Shown here: in pieces, positions 5,268 through 19,235 of the stretch | Layout of the letters: each line of letters opens with the position of its first letter | Numbering within the stretch: position 1 is the stretch's first letter | Source: Bryobacterales bacterium | GTDB lineage: Bacteria > Acidobacteriota > Terriglobia > Bryobacterales > UBA6623 | Length of the DNA: 64,000 nt | Direction of reading: 5' to 3' | Assembly (NCBI GenBank): GCA_026713545.1 | Contig: JAPOOG010000129.1 | Coordinates: forward strand, 62,001 to 126,000 | Notes under the pieces: model-generated | The model's input: the letters and a program-made list of their open reading frames with translations, nothing else | The model's database searches: none | What the model was told of the DNA's origin: nothing | Program-made: the position numbers and the translations under genes

Positions 5268-5343
<76 letters not shown>

Positions 5344-11320: not shown

Positions 11321-13276
11321 TCACTGAAGCGTCTGGTCCCTTGCCTCAAGAGCCCTGTTGAGATTCCGTGCTGCTTCGTCGTAGTCAGGGTCAAGCTGAA
11401 CAGCTCGGGAAAAGTACTCAATCGCGCCAGCCAAGTCTCCTTGTGATCCGATGACACTGCCGAGATTGTTGTGTGCCTCTGCGTACTTTGGTCTGATCTT
11501 GATCGCTTGTCGGTAGTGCCGAGCCGCTTCATGACTCTGCCCTAGAGCAGCCAGAACGTTCCCAAGGTTGTTGTGTGCCGCGGCCGACTCCGGATTTAGC
11601 TGCAACGCCGCCCGGTAATGGCGCATCGCTTCGGTGAAGCGGCCGAGCGAAGCCATCGCATTCCCAAGGTTGATGTGGGCGTCACCATAGTCCGGTTTTG
11701 CTTGCAAAGCCCGTTGAAAATGGGGGATTGCCTCGCGGGGCCTGCCTTGGGCGTCGAGCAGGGTTGCCAGGTTGTATTGGGCGTACGGGAAGCCCGGCTC
11801 GATTCGCACCGACGTGCGGAAGTGCTGCAGAGCCTTTGGGGGATGTCCGAGACGCAGATAAGCGTCTCCGAGGATGTTGTGAGTCTCGTATTCGTCCGGA
11901 TGGATCGTGAGTCGTTTCTCATATCCCGCGATGTCTCCGATGAGTGCTTTGTGCGCCGTGTCTCTCTGCAGCATCGTCAAGTCTGTTCTTCTCCGGGTAA
12001 CGGCCTGAAACCAGAGGTCTCCCATTTCTTCGAATGTTCGCCAGCCATAGAACACCCGTTGGGGCGGGGAAGAGGGGTTCTGGGGATTATCAGCAGAATT
12101 GTCATAGCTGAACCGCATCCGGATCATGCTTCCCTTCGGCAGGAAAACCGGATCTTTATAGCGATATTCATCCTGCCAATTAAAGTCCCACTGATTGATC
12201 TTGAGCAACCATTTCTTGGTGTCATCAGGCAGAATGGCGTACGAGATCATTTCTTTGCCGAGGTAGTGAGCATGGGGATAGACGTTGAGGACATCGACGT
12301 CTACCGGCAGGAGGTATTGATCCTCGATAACGTAGTCCCTCTCGCCCGGCGCAATATCCATCGTCGTCGATCCCATCCTGATGATGCTCGCCTTCCTGTC
12401 CGGCGGCTGATCGGTAAAAAAGAGACCGACCGAAGCCTGTATGGTTTCGGGTTTACCAGTGGGCAACATGTGCAACTCCAGGACAAAGTCGACTCCTTTA
12501 TCCAACGTCCACGACATGTCGGCAGGTCGTAGCACCGGCTGCTTGCCGGGCGTCCAGCCCAGCCAATGCCCCTCCGGATCAAAGATCTCGCTTTCCCCTA
12601 GCAGCATGCTGCCGGAAAAGCCCGGCTCGGGGTCCTGCTCGTCACGGCGTCGGGAATGGCCCGTTCGGTCGAGCGAAATCCGCGCGTGGTGAACGATGCG
12701 GGCATTGCCGGGCCGGAATTCCAGGCCGCGAACGTAACGAGTAGCCGGAATCGAGACAGGAATGGTGAAGTTGCGAAAGACATCCTGTCCCTCAGCCGGA
12801 AGGGTAAAGGGCTCCGGCATCGCTAGCTCAAGGTCGGGCTCGCCGAGTTGCCAGCCTTCGACCCATACGGGCAGAGCAGGCAGGTCTTGCGGGTCTCCTT
12901 CAGGCTTCCCCTGTTCGATCCAGTTCGATACCAGCGAGATCTGCTCCTGTGTGAGCCTTCGTTCTTCTGCGAACTCCCCATAGCCGTGTTCTGGAAGCCA
13001 CGGAGGCATGTAGCCACCTCCGGTGACAGCTAGGATCAACTCTGCGCGTCTCTTTACTTCGTCGTAGTTGAGGAGAGGAAAGGGGCCGGCTTCTCCCGGT
13101 CGATGGCAATGGGAACAGTTCTCGAAAATGATCGGGGCGACGTGTTCGTTGAATGTTATCGGTTTACCAGACGGAGACCGTGCTTCCGGAGAAGCCGGTG
13201 GGCTGCCGCAACTCACCGTGGATGCCGCCAAAAGCAGGACAAACATCACGACAGCCGGGAAGGAGCTGAGGTGCAT
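11321..13276 (-). CDS. Lipoprotein with c-type heme motif, copper type II (PHM-like) monooxygenase domain and C-terminal TPR repeats
   Basis: A lipobox-like signal (LAASTVSC, Cys23) anchors the 651-residue protein outside the cytoplasm. A single heme c motif CSHCH lies at 54-58. The central part has the ligand set of peptidylglycine hydroxylating monooxygenases: His196-His197 and His269 for one copper, His335-x-His337 (YPHAHYLG) and Met384 or Met387 for the other. From about residue 440 to the end there are five or six TPRs. PHM-type enzymes hydroxylate C-H bonds using ascorbate and O2; here the fused heme could replace ascorbate as electron donor, which is an inference. It is a single gene with no operon partner; the nearby ilv genes run the other way. 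Confidence 0.85.
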   Translation of the reverse strand: MHLSSFPAVVMFVLLLAASTVSCGSPPASPEARSPSGKPITFNEHVAPIIFENCSHCHRPGEAGPFPLLNYDEVKRRAELILAVTGGGYMPPWLPEHGYGEFAEERRLTQEQISLVSNWIEQGKPEGDPQDLPALPVWVEGWQLGEPDLELAMPEPFTLPAEGQDVFRNFTIPVSIPATRYVRGLEFRPGNARIVHHARISLDRTGHSRRRDEQDPEPGFSGSMLLGESEIFDPEGHWLGWTPGKQPVLRPADMSWTLDKGVDFVLELHMLPTGKPETIQASVGLFFTDQPPDRKASIIRMGSTTMDIAPGERDYVIEDQYLLPVDVDVLNVYPHAHYLGKEMISYAILPDDTKKWLLKINQWDFNWQDEYRYKDPVFLPKGSMIRMRFSYDNSADNPQNPSSPPQRVFYGWRTFEEMGDLWFQAVTRRRTDLTMLQRDTAHKALIGDIAGYEKRLTIHPDEYETHNILGDAYLRLGHPPKALQHFRTSVRIEPGFPYAQYNLATLLDAQGRPREAIPHFQRALQAKPDYGDAHINLGNAMASLGRFTEAMRHYRAALQLNPESAAAHNNLGNVLAALGQSHEAARHYRQAIKIRPKYAEAHNNLGSVIGSQGDLAGAIEYFSRAVQLDPDYDEAARNLNRALEARDQTLQ

Positions 13277-13622: not shown

Positions 13623-13652
13623 TTGACCTCCAAGCGCCCTCAAAGCTAGACT
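13623..13652 (+). promoter_or_regulatory. Candidate sigma-70 promoter for the ilv-cimA operon
   Basis: TTGACC (13623-13628) and TAGACT (13647-13652) are separated by 18 bases and match the -35 and -10 consensus at five and four of six positions. Transcription from here would give a leader of about 450 nt that carries the attenuator peptide and terminator. A closer promoter cannot be excluded. Confidence 0.4.
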
Positions 13653-13825
13653 AGACTCAATAAAGGCGTGACCTGCCCTGTACGAGGTTGGCTCGCATGA
13701 GCGGAATAGTGTCAATGAGGACGAAGGGCAAAGGACGGCGTTCTGGCGGGTCCCACTGCTGCCGACTGGATGCGGCTCGTGGGTCCCGAACTTTCGCATG
13801 CGTAGGCAGCCCTTCCGTCCTGCCG

Positions 13826-13909
13826 ATGCTCGAAGCTGAACCTCGTAGGATTGCCATTCTCCAAATTCAAAGCTCCATTATCGTCGTTGCTGTATCAAGC
13901 CCCGGCTGA
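13826..13909 (+). CDS. ilv operon leader peptide (attenuator)
   Basis: A 27-residue frame from ATG 13826 to TGA 13907-13909 ends in a run dominated by branched-chain residues: IAILQIQ followed by SSIIVVAVSSPG. Five Ile, four Val and two Leu among 27 residues is the hallmark of branched-chain amino acid attenuation. The stop codon lies in the loop of a small hairpin (AAGCCC 13897-13902 with GGGCTT 13910-13915) and a terminator follows 20 bases later. Ribosome stalling at Ile/Val codons would free the alternative hairpin. No strong ribosome binding site precedes this ATG; the same frame is open further upstream, so the peptide could be longer. Confidence 0.75.
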   Translation: MLEAEPRRIAILQIQSSIIVVAVSSPG

Positions 13910-13912
13910 GGG

Positions 13913-13932
13913 CTTCTGACAAGATTCAGAGG
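13913..13932 (+). promoter_or_regulatory. Candidate antiterminator hairpin of the ilv attenuator
   Basis: CTTCTGA (13913-13919) can pair with TCAGAGG (13926-13932), with one G-U pair and a six-base loop. The right arm uses the first three bases of the terminator stem and the left arm overlaps the pause hairpin at the leader stop codon, so the three structures are mutually exclusive, as required for attenuation. Confidence 0.5.
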
Positions 13933-13973
13933 CCACCAACCGGGGCGAGACACACCGGTCGGTGGCCTTTTTT
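13930..13973 (+). terminator. Intrinsic terminator (attenuator) upstream of ilvB
   Basis: AGGCCACCAACCGG (13930-13943) pairs with CCGGTCGGTGGCCT (13955-13968) with a single mismatch and an 11-base loop, followed by a run of T to 13973. It lies between the leader peptide and ilvB, 135 bases before the ilvB start, so it must be read through for expression of the operon. Confidence 0.9.
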
Positions 13974-14107: not shown

Positions 14108-15841
14108 ATGTCCTCGTTGATGTCAGGTTCCCAAATCTTGCTTGAAAGCCTCGCGCGCGAAGGCGTCGAGATGATATTCGGGTATCCCGGCGGTGTTACC
14201 CTGCCGATTTACGATGTCCTCTATGATCACCCGATACGGCATGTGCTCGTAAGGCACGAGGAGAACGCCTCTTTCGCTGCCGAAGGCTACGCGCGAGCTA
14301 CCGGCAGGGTCGGTGTTTGTATGGCGACCTCCGGCCCAGGTGCCACGAACCTCACCACCGGTCTCGTCGACGCTCTCATGGATTCCATCCCGATCGTTGC
14401 CATCACTGGCCAGGTGCCCGAGCACTTGATTGGACGAGATGCGTTCCAGGAGGCCGATACTTTCGGCATCACACGCGCCGCCACCAAGCACAACTACCTC
14501 GTCAAGCAAATCGACGAGATCCCCCAGGTCATCCACGAGGCGTTCCATATAGCCGGTGCCGGACGCCCGGGGCCGGTGCTGGTCGACATCACCAAGAATG
14601 TCCTGCAAGGCAAGACCGGTTATCATCCCGCCGCAGTATTGCGGCCCCTGCGAGGATTCCACGTTCGGCTTGATCCCGACGATGAGGAGATCGAAGCCGC
14701 CCTGCAATTCCTATGGGCGTCGGAGCGGCCCTATATCTATGCCGGCGGCGGCGTGATCTCGTCGGCAGCGTCCGATGAACTGCGTGAGTTCGCTGAGCTG
14801 CTCGAAGCTCCTTTGGCCCACACCGTCATGGGTCTGGGTGCCCTGCCCAGCAACCATCCAAACTTCATCAGCATGTTGGGTATGCACGGCAGCTATGCCG
14901 CCAACATGGGCATCACGGAAACTGATGCGCTGATCGGGCTCGGTGTGCGCTTTGACGACCGCGTGACGGGGCGTCTCGATGCCTTTGCTCCCAAGGCGCG
15001 TGTGCTGCACGTCGATATCGATCCGGCGGAAATCAACAAGAACCGCCGAGCCGATTTGGGTATCGTCGGCGACGTTAAACAAGTCCTGCAGAAGTTGAAC
15101 AACCGCTTGCGAGAGACGAAGGAGTCCCTCGGAACCCACAATCGCCAGAAGCGCGCGGTATGGAGAGCGCGGATCGAAGGCTGGAAGCGCGAACATCCTT
15201 TCGCTGAAGTCTACGACGATAACGAAATCAAGCCGCAGTACCTCATGAAGAAGCTTGATGAAGCTTCCGGCGGGGAGGCGATAGTCTCGGTTGACGTCGG
15301 CCAACATCAGATGTGGGCGGCGCAGTACATCCGCTTCAACCGCCCGCGGTTGTGGGTCAATTCCGGCGGTCTCGGTGCGATGGGCTTCGGTCTTCCCGCT
15401 GCGATGGGTGCCCAGTTCGGCAACCCCGGCAAGCTCGTGATGGCCGTTGTCGGCGACGGTGGTTTCATGATGAGCCTGCCGGAACTCGCCACCATCTCCA
15501 GCCACAAGCTGCCGGTCAAGATCATCGTCATGAACAACGGCTGGCTTGGCATGGTCCGCCAGTGGCAGGAACTGTTCTATAACGGCCGTTATTCCGAGGT
15601 AGCCATGGATGCTTTCCCGAACTGTGAGCTGCTCGCGGCCGCCTTCGGCATCAGAGGCCGCTCGGTTGACAACCCCGCCGAACTCGAAACCGGCCTCGCC
15701 GAAGCGCTCGCTGAACCCGGTCCCTTCCTGCTCAATGTGAATGTCACACGGGAAGAGAACGTCTACCCGATGGTGCCCGCCGGCGGCGCTGTTAACGAAA
15801 TGATTCTGGGACCGCCCAAGCCGGTCGCCGTGGGGGACTGA
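14108..15841 (+). CDS. ilvB: Acetolactate synthase large (catalytic) subunit
   Basis: The 577-residue thiamine-diphosphate enzyme condenses two pyruvates to acetolactate or pyruvate and 2-oxobutyrate to acetohydroxybutyrate, the first common step to Val, Leu and Ile. Visible landmarks are the catalytic Glu in VRHEENASFAAEGYAR, the FAD region and the ThDP motif GDGGFMMS through MNNGWLGMV. Length is normal for the family. It starts at ATG 14108 and is followed two bases after its stop by ilvN. Expression should be controlled by the attenuator at 13826-13973. Confidence 0.97.
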   Translation: MSSLMSGSQILLESLAREGVEMIFGYPGGVTLPIYDVLYDHPIRHVLVRHEENASFAAEGYARATGRVGVCMATSGPGATNLTTGLVDALMDSIPIVAITGQVPEHLIGRDAFQEADTFGITRAATKHNYLVKQIDEIPQVIHEAFHIAGAGRPGPVLVDITKNVLQGKTGYHPAAVLRPLRGFHVRLDPDDEEIEAALQFLWASERPYIYAGGGVISSAASDELREFAELLEAPLAHTVMGLGALPSNHPNFISMLGMHGSYAANMGITETDALIGLGVRFDDRVTGRLDAFAPKARVLHVDIDPAEINKNRRADLGIVGDVKQVLQKLNNRLRETKESLGTHNRQKRAVWRARIEGWKREHPFAEVYDDNEIKPQYLMKKLDEASGGEAIVSVDVGQHQMWAAQYIRFNRPRLWVNSGGLGAMGFGLPAAMGAQFGNPGKLVMAVVGDGGFMMSLPELATISSHKLPVKIIVMNNGWLGMVRQWQELFYNGRYSEVAMDAFPNCELLAAAFGIRGRSVDNPAELETGLAEALAEPGPFLLNVNVTREENVYPMVPAGGAVNEMILGPPKPVAVGD

Positions 15842-15843
15842 TC

Positions 15844-16398
15844 ATGCAACAGCTCATCTCACTGCTCGTGGAGAACAAACCCGGTGCCCTCATGCGTGTC
15901 GCCGGCGTGTTGACGTCCCGTGGCTACAACATCGACAGCTTGACGGTCGCGAAGACGCTTGATCCCACGCTCTCGAACATGACCATCGTCGTCAACGTCG
16001 AGTCATCGACGCACGACGAGGAGCTGCTCATCAAGCAGATCAAGCGGCTGGTGGACGTTGTCGAAGTGGTCGATCTCACTGATTCCCAGGCTGTCACACG
16101 CGAGCTGGCTCTCATCAAGGTCAAGGTCTCTCCCGACATGCGCCCTGCTCTTCTCAAGGAGGCTGATATCTTCCGGGCCCGCGTCGTCGACGCCGCCTCC
16201 ACGTCGTATACCCTCGAAGTCACCGGCGCCGGCGAAAAGCTCGACGCGCTGATCGGTCTCTTGCACAACTACGGCGAAGTCGAAATGATTCGCTCCGGCG
16301 CCATGGCCATGGGACGCTCTCCCAAGGTCGATCATCGCGAAGCCTTCGCCGAGGCTTCGCGCGTGTCGGATAAAGTTCGCGAAACGGTCAAGATATAG
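15844..16398 (+). CDS. ilvN: Acetolactate synthase small (regulatory) subunit
   Basis: The 184-residue protein has an N-terminal ACT domain ([31 protein letters not shown]) and the C-terminal ALS_ss_C domain (about 80-160). It binds valine and confers feedback regulation on IlvB. It starts two bases after the ilvB stop and ends 44 bases before ilvC. The gene is sometimes named ilvH. Confidence 0.96.
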
Positions 16399-16442: not shown

Positions 16443-17456
16443 ATGGCAACGATTTATTACGAAAAAGATGGCAGCCTCGATCCGCTGCTCGACAAAACAG
16501 TGGCGATCATCGGCTACGGCAGCCAGGGACATGCCCACGCACTGAACTTGAAGGATAGCGGCATCAATGTTGTCGTCGGCCTTTACGAAGGAAGCAAGTC
16601 CTGGCCGCAGGCCGAAGCCGCCGGCCTCGAGGTCATGACCACTGCCGACGCCTCCAAGGCTGCCGATGCCGTCATGATTCTCGTCTCCGATCACATTCAA
16701 GGCGATCTCTACCGCAACGAAGTTGCCCCCAATCTCAGCGACGGCGACACCGTCATGTTCGCCCATGGCTTCAATATCCACTTCAAGGAAATCGAGCCCG
16801 GCCCGAACCTCGATGTTTCCATGATCGCGCCCAAGGCCCCCGGCCATCGCGTCCGCGAGTTGTTTACCGAAGGTGTCGGTGTCCCTGGTCTTCTGGCGAT
16901 TCATCAGGACGCCAGCGGCAAGGCCAAGGAGAACGGCCTCGCCTACGCCTTGGCGCTCGGTTGCCTCAAAGCCGGCGTCATCGAGACGACCTTCAGGGAA
17001 GAGACGGAAAGCGACCTCTTTGGTGAGCAGTCTGTCCTCTGTGGCGGCTGCTCCGAGTTGATTCGCGCCGGCTTCGAGACGCTCGTCGAGGCTGGGTACG
17101 CGCCGGAGATCGCCTACTTCGAGTGCCTTCACGAGTTGAAGATGATTGTCGACCTGATCCAGGAAGGAGGCCTCAACTACATGCGGTATTCCGTCAGCGA
17201 CACCGCTGAGTACGGCGACTATACGTCAGGTCCCCGCGTCATCGATGCCCATGTGCGGGAGACCATGAAGAGCATTCTGGCCGATGTCCAGTCCGGCAAG
17301 TTCGCCAGGGAGTGGATGGATGAGAACCGCGCCGGCCGTCAGAAGTTTCTTGCCATGCGCAAGGCGCAACAGACCCAACCGATCGAGGAGGTGGGCGGAC
17401 GTCTGCGCGAGATGATGAGCTTTTTGAAGAGGAAAAAAGAGGCGCCGCAAAGCTAG
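16443..17456 (+). CDS. ilvC: Ketol-acid reductoisomerase
   Basis: The ATG at 16443 gives the standard N-terminus [12 protein letters not shown] and has AGAGGAA about 12 bases upstream; an upstream in-frame TTG is not supported. The 337-residue class I enzyme has the Rossmann loop [23 protein letters not shown], and the metal ligands in [10 protein letters not shown] and the helical C-terminal knotted domain ([21 protein letters not shown]). It converts acetolactate and acetohydroxybutyrate to dihydroxy acids with NADPH. Third gene of the ilv operon. Confidence 0.97.
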
Positions 17457-17624: not shown

Positions 17625-19235
17625 ATGAGAATCTTCACCTACGACACCACGCTGCGCGACGGCACTCAGGGAGAAAACATCTCCTTCTCGGTCGACGACA
17701 AGTTGATGATTGCCGAGAAGCTCGACGAGCTCGGAATCGACTACATCGAGGGCGGCTGGCCGGGTTCGAACCCCCGCGACAAGGACTTCTTCGCGCGTGC
17801 CCGAGACCTGGAGTTCAAGCACGCGCGTCTTGCCGCATTCGGCTCGACGCGCTACCCGCGCAACACGGTAAAGGCCGACCCCAACGTCAACGCGCTCCTG
17901 GAAGCTGAAACCCCCGTCGTCACGATCTTTGGCAAGAGTTGGCGTTTGCACACCGAACGCGCCCTTGGCGTGACCGAAGAACAGAATCTGGCTATGATCT
18001 CCGAGACCGTCGGACACATCAAACAACAGGGCAGGGAAGTCATCTTCGACGCTGAGCATTTCTTCGACGGCTACGAAGCGAGTGCCGACTTCGCACTGCG
18101 TACCCTCGAGGCCGCTCAGGAAGCTGGCGCCGACGTTCTCGTCCTCTGTGACACCAACGGAGGTACGGTCACGAATCGGCTCGGAGAGATATTCGCCGAA
18201 GTTCGCAATCGTTTCGACGGCGTCATCGGTATCCACACCCACAACGACTCCGAGTTGGCCGTCGCCAACGCCATCACGGCAGTCGAGTTGGGCGCGACGC
18301 ACGTTCAGGGGACGGCCAACGGCTACGGCGAGCGCTGTGGCAATGCCAACCTGTGTTCGATCATCCCGGTGCTCGAGTTGAAACTCGGTCACTCCACTGT
18401 GGGCCGCGAAAAATTGAAGCACCTTACTGCCACGGCGAATTTCGTCAGTGAGACCGCCAACCTTTCTCTGCCCAACGATTGCGCCTTCGTTGGCCGTAGC
18501 GCCTTCGCCCACAAGGGCGGCATCCACGTCAGTGCCGTCCTCAAAGAAGTCTCCACCTACGAGCATGTCGAACCCGAAACGATCGGCAACCAGCGTCGTG
18601 TCCTCGTGAGCGACCTTTCCGGACGCAGCAACATCACGTACAAGCTCACCGAGAAGGGGCTCGACAAGCGATTGGACGCCGCCGCGCGCCGCCAATTGCT
18701 CGACCGCATCAAGCATCTCGAGTTTGAGGGCTACGAGCTCGAGTCCGCCGAGGGCACCTTCGAATTGCTCGTTCGCGAAGTCCTGCAGCCCGATCATTTC
18801 TTCTTCGAGCTTGAGCGGATGCGTGTCACCGACGAGCGTGAGGGAAGTCGCCGCACGAATTGCCACGTTGAGATGAGTGTCAAGACCCGAGACGGTGTCT
18901 GCACGGCGGACGTCTCCGCCTCCGGCCCCTTCGACGCCATGGCGCAGTGCCTGCGCAAATGCCTTTCGCACAGCTATCCCGCCGTGGCAGACATCCGTCT
19001 CGTCGACTACAAAGTCCGTGTTCTCGAACCGAATCGCGGCACCGCCGCCAAGGTGCGCGTTCTCATCGAGTGGAGCGACCACAAGCGCAACTGGACCACC
19101 GTCGGCGTATCCGACGATGTCCTCGAAGCCAGTTGGAATGCCCTCGTCGATTCCATCCGCCTCGAGTTGCTCCGCCTCGCTGAAACCGACAAGTCCCTCA
19201 GCGAAGCAGTAGCCGATTACTCCTGGGGCGTCTGA
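17625..19235 (+). CDS. cimA: (R)-citramalate synthase
   Basis: The 536-residue protein begins with the HMGL-like catalytic domain (TLRDGTQGENISFS, HTHNDSELAVANA, GTANGYGERCGNANL) and ends in the LeuA allosteric dimer domain. GGWPGSNPRDKDFF and the overall length distinguish citramalate synthase from 2-isopropylmalate synthase. It condenses acetyl-CoA with pyruvate and starts the threonine-independent route to 2-oxobutyrate and isoleucine. Position behind ilvBNC under an Ile/Val-rich leader supports this role. The TGA stop is also the first codon of the TGACCTG edge of a module A repeat. Confidence 0.93.
   Translation: MRIFTYDTTLRDGTQGENISFSVDDKLMIAEKLDELGIDYIEGGWPGSNPRDKDFFARARDLEFKHARLAAFGSTRYPRNTVKADPNVNALLEAETPVVTIFGKSWRLHTERALGVTEEQNLAMISETVGHIKQQGREVIFDAEHFFDGYEASADFALRTLEAAQEAGADVLVLCDTNGGTVTNRLGEIFAEVRNRFDGVIGIHTHNDSELAVANAITAVELGATHVQGTANGYGERCGNANLCSIIPVLELKLGHSTVGREKLKHLTATANFVSETANLSLPNDCAFVGRSAFAHKGGIHVSAVLKEVSTYEHVEPETIGNQRRVLVSDLSGRSNITYKLTEKGLDKRLDAAARRQLLDRIKHLEFEGYELESAEGTFELLVREVLQPDHFFFELERMRVTDEREGSRRTNCHVEMSVKTRDGVCTADVSASGPFDAMAQCLRKCLSHSYPAVADIRLVDYKVRVLEPNRGTAAKVRVLIEWSDHKRNWTTVGVSDDVLEASWNALVDSIRLELLRLAETDKSLSEAVADYSWGV

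Follow-up and report, generated by a model that had tools for sequence, protein, structure and literature searches.

What governs transcription of ilvB in this acidobacterium, and does the DNA in front of the gene hold an attenuator that reads the supply of the operon's own products? Acidobacteriota are a dominant, hard-to-culture soil phylum. In Escherichia coli, ribosome stalling on the Ile, Val and Leu codons of the ilvL and ivbL leaders controls alternative hairpins before ilv genes. In a 2010 description, nearly all attenuators predicted in Acidobacteriota lacked a function. For the window (the whole stretch of 64,000 nucleotides analyzed here, from a soil bacterium of the order Bryobacterales), the original prediction proposed a full attenuation system in front of ilvBNC-cimA and added that classical attenuation is poorly documented in the phylum. 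The latter agrees with the open literature searched, in which no description of an ilvB leader peptide or attenuator from Acidobacteria was found, including from Solibacter.

Sequence comparison and folding models make it very probable that the region 5′ of ilvB acts as a ribosome-mediated transcription attenuator sensing charged tRNA-Ile and tRNA-Val and controlling ilvBNC-cimA. The elements and their mutual exclusion, conservation, covariation, codon bias and operon context are established from the sequence and from its relatives. Attenuators of this kind are well known; what is new is an order-wide example in the little-studied Acidobacteriota.

The Ile/Val leader and its operon

The DNA 5′ of ilvB reads as an Ile/Val-rich frame, an antiterminator that draws on the last codons of the frame and a competing terminator with a U-tract, and all named elements were found where they had been placed. 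The genes that follow, assigned with NCBIfam equivalog models at scores above the curated cut-offs, are those of the proposed operon:

14108–15841, plus strand: ilvB, acetolactate synthase large subunit (TIGR00118, 747 bits)
15844–16398, plus strand: ilvN, acetolactate synthase small subunit (both NF008864 and TIGR00119 exceed their cut-offs)
16443–17456, plus strand: ilvC, ketol-acid reductoisomerase (NF004017 and TIGR00465, above cut-off)
17625–19235, plus strand: cimA, citramalate synthase (TIGR00977, 685 bits versus a cut-off of 450)

In every one of 12 genomes examined from the taxonomic order, the genes run ilvB-ilvN-ilvC-cimA. A separate leuA of the same genome (L155, contig C18) has a CTTGCAT-type promoter, and no attenuator was seen at that gene.

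The part of the leader frame that carries the sensing codons comprises two features:

13826–13909, plus strand: 27-codon leader as first called, the 3′ part of the frame, which holds the sensing codons; frame and Ile/Val codons are conserved
13877–13894, plus strand: control codons ATT ATC GTC GTT GCT GTA (Ile Ile Val Val Ala Val) at leader positions −10 to −5, identified by conservation, codon enrichment and folding under a ribosome mask

The first of these translates as MLEAEPRRIAILQIQSSIIVVAVSSPG and ends at a TGA stop codon. Independent IlvB searches supplied the upstream regions of some 60 relatives, and 53 loci could be aligned around the leader stop codon and terminator. The C terminus of the aligned leaders follows the pattern Val(GTA)-x-x-Pro-Ala/Gly-stop. 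Conservation of the Ile/Val codons, the check proposed with the original prediction, held across the order: positions −5, −7, −9 and −10 are dominated by Ile and Val, with Val at −5 written GTA in 46 of the 53 leaders, Val at −7 in 46, and Ile at −9 and −10 in 38 and 34, respectively. Across the last 15 codons, Val accounts for 25%, Ile for 20% and Leu for 6% of residues. Synonymous choice is equally skewed, GTA making up 57% of Val codons in the leaders versus 8% in ilvB, and ATT 70% of Ile codons versus 22% (53 loci). The RNA upstream of these codons is variable, so that conservation follows codon positions and rare synonyms, and rare GTA and ATT codons at sensing positions are what a sensor of charged tRNA would need. 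Positional conservation of Ile and Val, the enrichment of their rare synonyms and the low share of Leu together indicate that Ile and Val are the amino acids sensed and do not point to Leu. The leader is thus rich in Ile and Val, as first described, but the Leu enrichment and, as set out below, the length of 27 residues did not hold up.

A joint criterion was applied to the leader region and to the window. It demanded at least 8 I/L/V in 20 codons, a terminator of −18 kcal/mol or lower with a run of five or more T, and an antiterminator duplex of −15 kcal/mol or lower, all in the right order and spacing. None of 3,000 dinucleotide shuffles gave such a combination, and when both strands of the window were divided into 848 tiles, the two over the ilvB leader were the only ones to show it. 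The minimum free energy (MFE) of the leader stretch alone is unremarkable (z = −1.75), and the global folding z-score, unconvincing by itself, was not used as proof of structure.

Probable promoter and start of the leader gene

Where the leader gene begins was judged from the promoter and from start codon spacing, two features being assigned upstream of the first-called frame:

13623–13652, plus strand: probable promoter, −35 TTGACC (13623–13628), 18-nt spacer, −10 TAGACT (13647–13652), from a consensus scan and conservation
13697–13909, plus strand: probable full leader gene, 70 codons plus TGA, MSGIVSMRTKGKGRRSGGSHCCRLDAARGSRTFACVGSPSVLPMLEAEPRRIAILQIQSSIIVVAVSSPG (start codon inferred)

Both promoter hexamers are conserved between the window and the same-genus locus L004 while flanks and spacer diverge, and TTGACC-N15..19-TAnnnT occurs at a similar distance 5′ of the leader in 16 of the 17 other f1/f2 loci (f1 is the family of the window). 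The in-frame ATG at 13697 lies 44 nt after the −10 and is preceded by GAGG (−7.1 kcal/mol to the anti-Shine-Dalgarno sequence); in the f1 and f2 relatives, too, an in-frame ATG keeps a nearly constant spacing to the promoter, the first one falling 37 to 45 nt after the −10 in 14 of the 16 loci scored. Because of this start spacing, the Shine-Dalgarno sequence and the promoter, 13697 is preferred as the start, and in all likelihood the leader gene spans 13697–13909 with 70 codons. The openness of the frame was dropped as an argument for the long leader: stop counts do not discriminate, as any frame read from its first in-frame ATG is bound to be open and a second frame has hardly any stops either.

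The same attenuation mechanism could instead operate from a short, 27-codon leader starting at ATG 13826, which would have the merit of a classical size. This version is unlikely, since that ATG is GTG in L003 and ACG in L004, two relatives of the same genus, and has no Shine-Dalgarno sequence (0.7 kcal/mol), and since the conserved promoter would lie about 170 nt upstream of it.

In the larger sister family f3 the arrangement differs from that of the 70-codon leader. The f3 promoter, CTTGCATTT-N-TAnnCT, is nearly invariant (L006–L019, L039–L070) and conserved well beyond a plain −35 box, and of some 36 loci about half have their leader start 6 to 9 nt after the −10, the others having it no more than about 27 nt away. 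With start codons so close behind the −10, many f3 leaders are probably leaderless; start sites in all families were placed from promoters. The evidence seems to us evenly balanced on whether a single order-wide attenuator has retained its RNA switch and its rare-codon Ile/Val sensor through a rebuilding of the translation start, to a (nearly) leaderless form in f3 and to a leader of 50 to 77 codons with a conventional 5′ untranslated region in the family of the window. If this is true, initiation mode and leader length would be free to change around a fixed switch. The ilvB leaders offer a ready test of leaderless versus Shine-Dalgarno-led translation around the same switch.

Alternative RNA structures and the modeled switch

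Four features make up the RNA switch:

13899–13905, plus strand: antiterminator 5′ element GCCCCGG, within the last leader codons (Ser-Pro-Gly), paired with 13940–13946 in the MFE fold
13911–13934, plus strand: inner hairpin of the antiterminator, GGCTTCTGA/TCAGAGGCC, immediately behind the stop codon in the MFE fold
13931–13946, plus strand: switch element GGCCACCAACCGGGGC, both terminator 5′ arm and antiterminator 3′ arm, with mutually exclusive pairings that both covary
13929–13973, plus strand: intrinsic terminator, stem 13929–13969 of about −27 kcal/mol, T-run 13968–13973

The strong terminator of the original prediction is borne out by its stem energy, T-run and covariation, its arms reading GAGGCCACC..CCGG and CCGG..GGTGGCCTT; a simple terminator scan missed it, the loop being too long for the rule of that scan. 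In the alternative structure, which is the MFE fold of the leader stretch, GCCCCGG pairs with the complementary CCGGGGC at 13940–13946. The hairpin earlier taken for a pause hairpin at the stop codon does exist, with 9 bp (13911–13919 with 13926–13934), and forms the inner half of the antiterminator, with the GGCC of the terminator 5′ arm contained in its own 3′ arm. That arm, GGCCACC..CCGG, is shared by both structures.

Covariation in relatives supports both pairings, as expected of the mutually exclusive antiterminator that had been claimed. Stem positions 4 to 9 of the terminator covary (C-G to T-A, A-T to G-C and others), with A-T in 45 and G-C in 6 at position 4, C-G in 37, T-A in 9 and T-G in 6 at position 5, and C-G in 36 and T-A in 14 at position 6. 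For the antiterminator, duplexes with the locus' own partner average −18.8 kcal/mol, versus −16.3 for swapped and −10.3 for shuffled partners. Position −2 is C-G in 42 and G-C in 10, in line with the two peptide endings, Pro-Ala and Pro-Gly, and in L066 a change of CCC to CTC is accompanied by GGGG to GAGG, a compensatory antiterminator change. A C-terminal Pro acting as a peptide signal was rejected as the main reason for its conservation; Leu (CTC) stands at this place in L066 and L061, and Ala in L055, with the pairing largely kept, and on these sequences the conserved Pro is therefore best explained as a side effect of RNA pairing.

A terminator with an antiterminator would, taken alone, also fit a riboswitch, a T-box or a protein-bound leader that controls the terminator while the peptide frame is incidental. 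Such control is most improbable here: searches for Rfam leaders, T-boxes and riboswitches turned up nothing relevant for the window leader and for 20 relatives, even the best of the weak matches being unrelated or far below threshold, conservation tracks Ile/Val codons and rare synonyms rather than the variable upstream RNA, and the antiterminator element always overlaps the last leader codons and the stop. (The sole Rfam match in the window at gathering threshold is a tRNA gene at 5271–5343, minus strand.) Scarcely tenable, too, despite a strong hairpin and T-run, is a plain terminator or constitutive 5′ untranslated element that senses no amino acid and, for example, insulates ilvB from upstream transcription, as the gene 5′ of the leader is on the opposite strand (11321–13276, minus), leaving no upstream transcript to end, and an Ile/Val leader and antiterminator are conserved along with the terminator through the order.

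For the ribosome-mediated attenuator, we infer transcription start, leader translation, stalling, termination and read-through as follows. Transcription would start about 7 nt after the −10 that ends at 13652, and a ribosome would translate the leader behind RNA polymerase. When Ile-tRNA or Val-tRNA is scarce, the ribosome would stall on ATT, ATC, GTC or GTT (13877–13888), leaving GCCCCGG and the stretch after the stop codon free to capture 13931–13946 as it emerges; the terminator would then not form, and polymerase would continue into ilvB. When both tRNAs are charged, the ribosome would reach the stop codon and cover GCCCCGG and the following 13 nt or so, and 13931–13946 would pair with its downstream arm, ending transcription at the T-run near 13973.

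When the window leader was folded under a ribosome-sized mask, the terminator probability was 0.00 to 0.01 for an A site at either Ile codon (−10 or −9), rose to 0.70 for the Val codon at −7 and reached 1.00 at −5, as it did at the stop codon. While the downstream arm was still missing, upstream RNA held 0.81 of the switch element in silico for stalls at −12 to −7, versus 0.02 for a ribosome at the stop. In the model, the window leader thus behaves as a classical attenuator with respect to ribosome position. Without any ribosome the equilibrium model predicts antitermination, and the basal state would therefore require leader translation to keep up. A protector hairpin was not established in the window leader. 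Pairing between leader codons and the 3′ arm of the terminator, which could serve RNA without a ribosome as a built-in terminator, is not claimed for the window, the own pairing in f1 falling between the controls; in f3 the own pairing is the stronger one, at −16.5 versus −14.6 for swapped arms and −13.1 and −15.1 for synonymous leaders. For several f3 members the equilibrium model favors the terminator in every state, and switching there would therefore have to rely on co-transcriptional timing. The invariance of GTA at −5 is not fully explained by the model, in which a stall at this codon would cover the antiterminator element.

Known counterparts and distribution

The locus has codons for its own product in the leader, a terminator before the first gene and biosynthesis genes downstream, and in silico an antiterminator that depends on ribosome position, the last being less clear for some f3 members. 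Of the systems described so far, the one closest in target and logic is the ilvBNC leader of Corynebacterium (ilvL, the “ilvB-II motif”), which likewise precedes ilvB-ilvN-ilvC with a leader rich in branched-chain amino acids and an overlapping antiterminator and terminator. In Corynebacterium, GUA is named as a conserved control codon, the transcript starts one nucleotide from the leader start, and all representatives of the motif are in that genus (PMC11857589, PMC10272879). Many f3 relatives probably resemble it in having the transcript start next to the leader start. The Bryobacterales leaders differ in phylum, in length (probably 70 residues here versus 15), in an antiterminator that includes the last leader codons and the stop, and in the presence of cimA in the operon; no shared sequence was seen.

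The ilvB-OMG and Leptospira ilvB motifs also have a predicted upstream open reading frame rich in branched-chain amino acids before ilvB (PMC10272879). Their peptides are rich in threonine as well, and no Rfam model matched the Bryobacterales leader, which is probably distinct from ilvB-OMG. With the proteobacterial ilv leaders, such as E. coli ilvL and ivbL, the locus shares the logic of stalling before ilv genes, but no sequence relation was found, Leu codons are not enriched here, and the operon content is different.

When 166 bases of leader DNA were compared with 200 genomes of the order, all 19 matches lay just upstream of ilvB. An automatic rule (at least 8 I/L/V in 20 codons, followed by a terminator) matched 46 of the 62 ilvB loci of the order, an upper-side estimate, as 19 of the 62 had been picked by leader similarity; most of its misses there came from one genus whose terminator has decayed or from loci that narrowly failed the thresholds. 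The rule matched 3 of 48 ilvB loci from other families within the class, 3 of 8 from other families within the phylum, and 1 of the 73 best ilvB matches in a collection of named genomes, this control set coming from a contig search that returned mostly other phyla. A phylum-wide IlvB search at a strict E-value gave few loci outside the order and was repeated for the class. On these sequence comparisons, the attenuator was probably inherited across the whole of Bryobacterales. Acidobacteriota thereby gain a well-supported, order-wide attenuator for which signal (Ile and Val), control codons and operon are all specified, and the ilvB leader becomes an RNA element usable for annotation.

Individual loci depart from this pattern in several ways. 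In g2, a genus of the window's own family (L025–L032, L018, L037), an Ile/Val leader (SLIIPVAVACPG and similar) and the antiterminator stem are kept, but most loci have a weak or missing terminator stem or U-tract; the L025 leader has also lost its stop codon. The attenuator of g2 may be decaying or rewired. Two loci of Bryobacterales type, L048 and L158, keep a CTTGCAT promoter before ilvB and have no Ile/Val leader or attenuator, an apparent loss; the IlvB of L158, from a named Bryobacterales metagenome-assembled genome, is as close as that of the f3 relatives. Different Ile/Val-rich leaders with terminators stand before ilvB in other families of Acidobacteriota (L073, L074, L077, L080, L110, L113, L115, L117), for example SLFSKAIINNIAVIIIIAIISIIVRT in L074, and ilvB attenuation seems to be scattered through the phylum. 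The ilvB match of L047 (G028:C93:36016-37734) carries one in-frame TAG, due to an assembly error or a disrupted gene.
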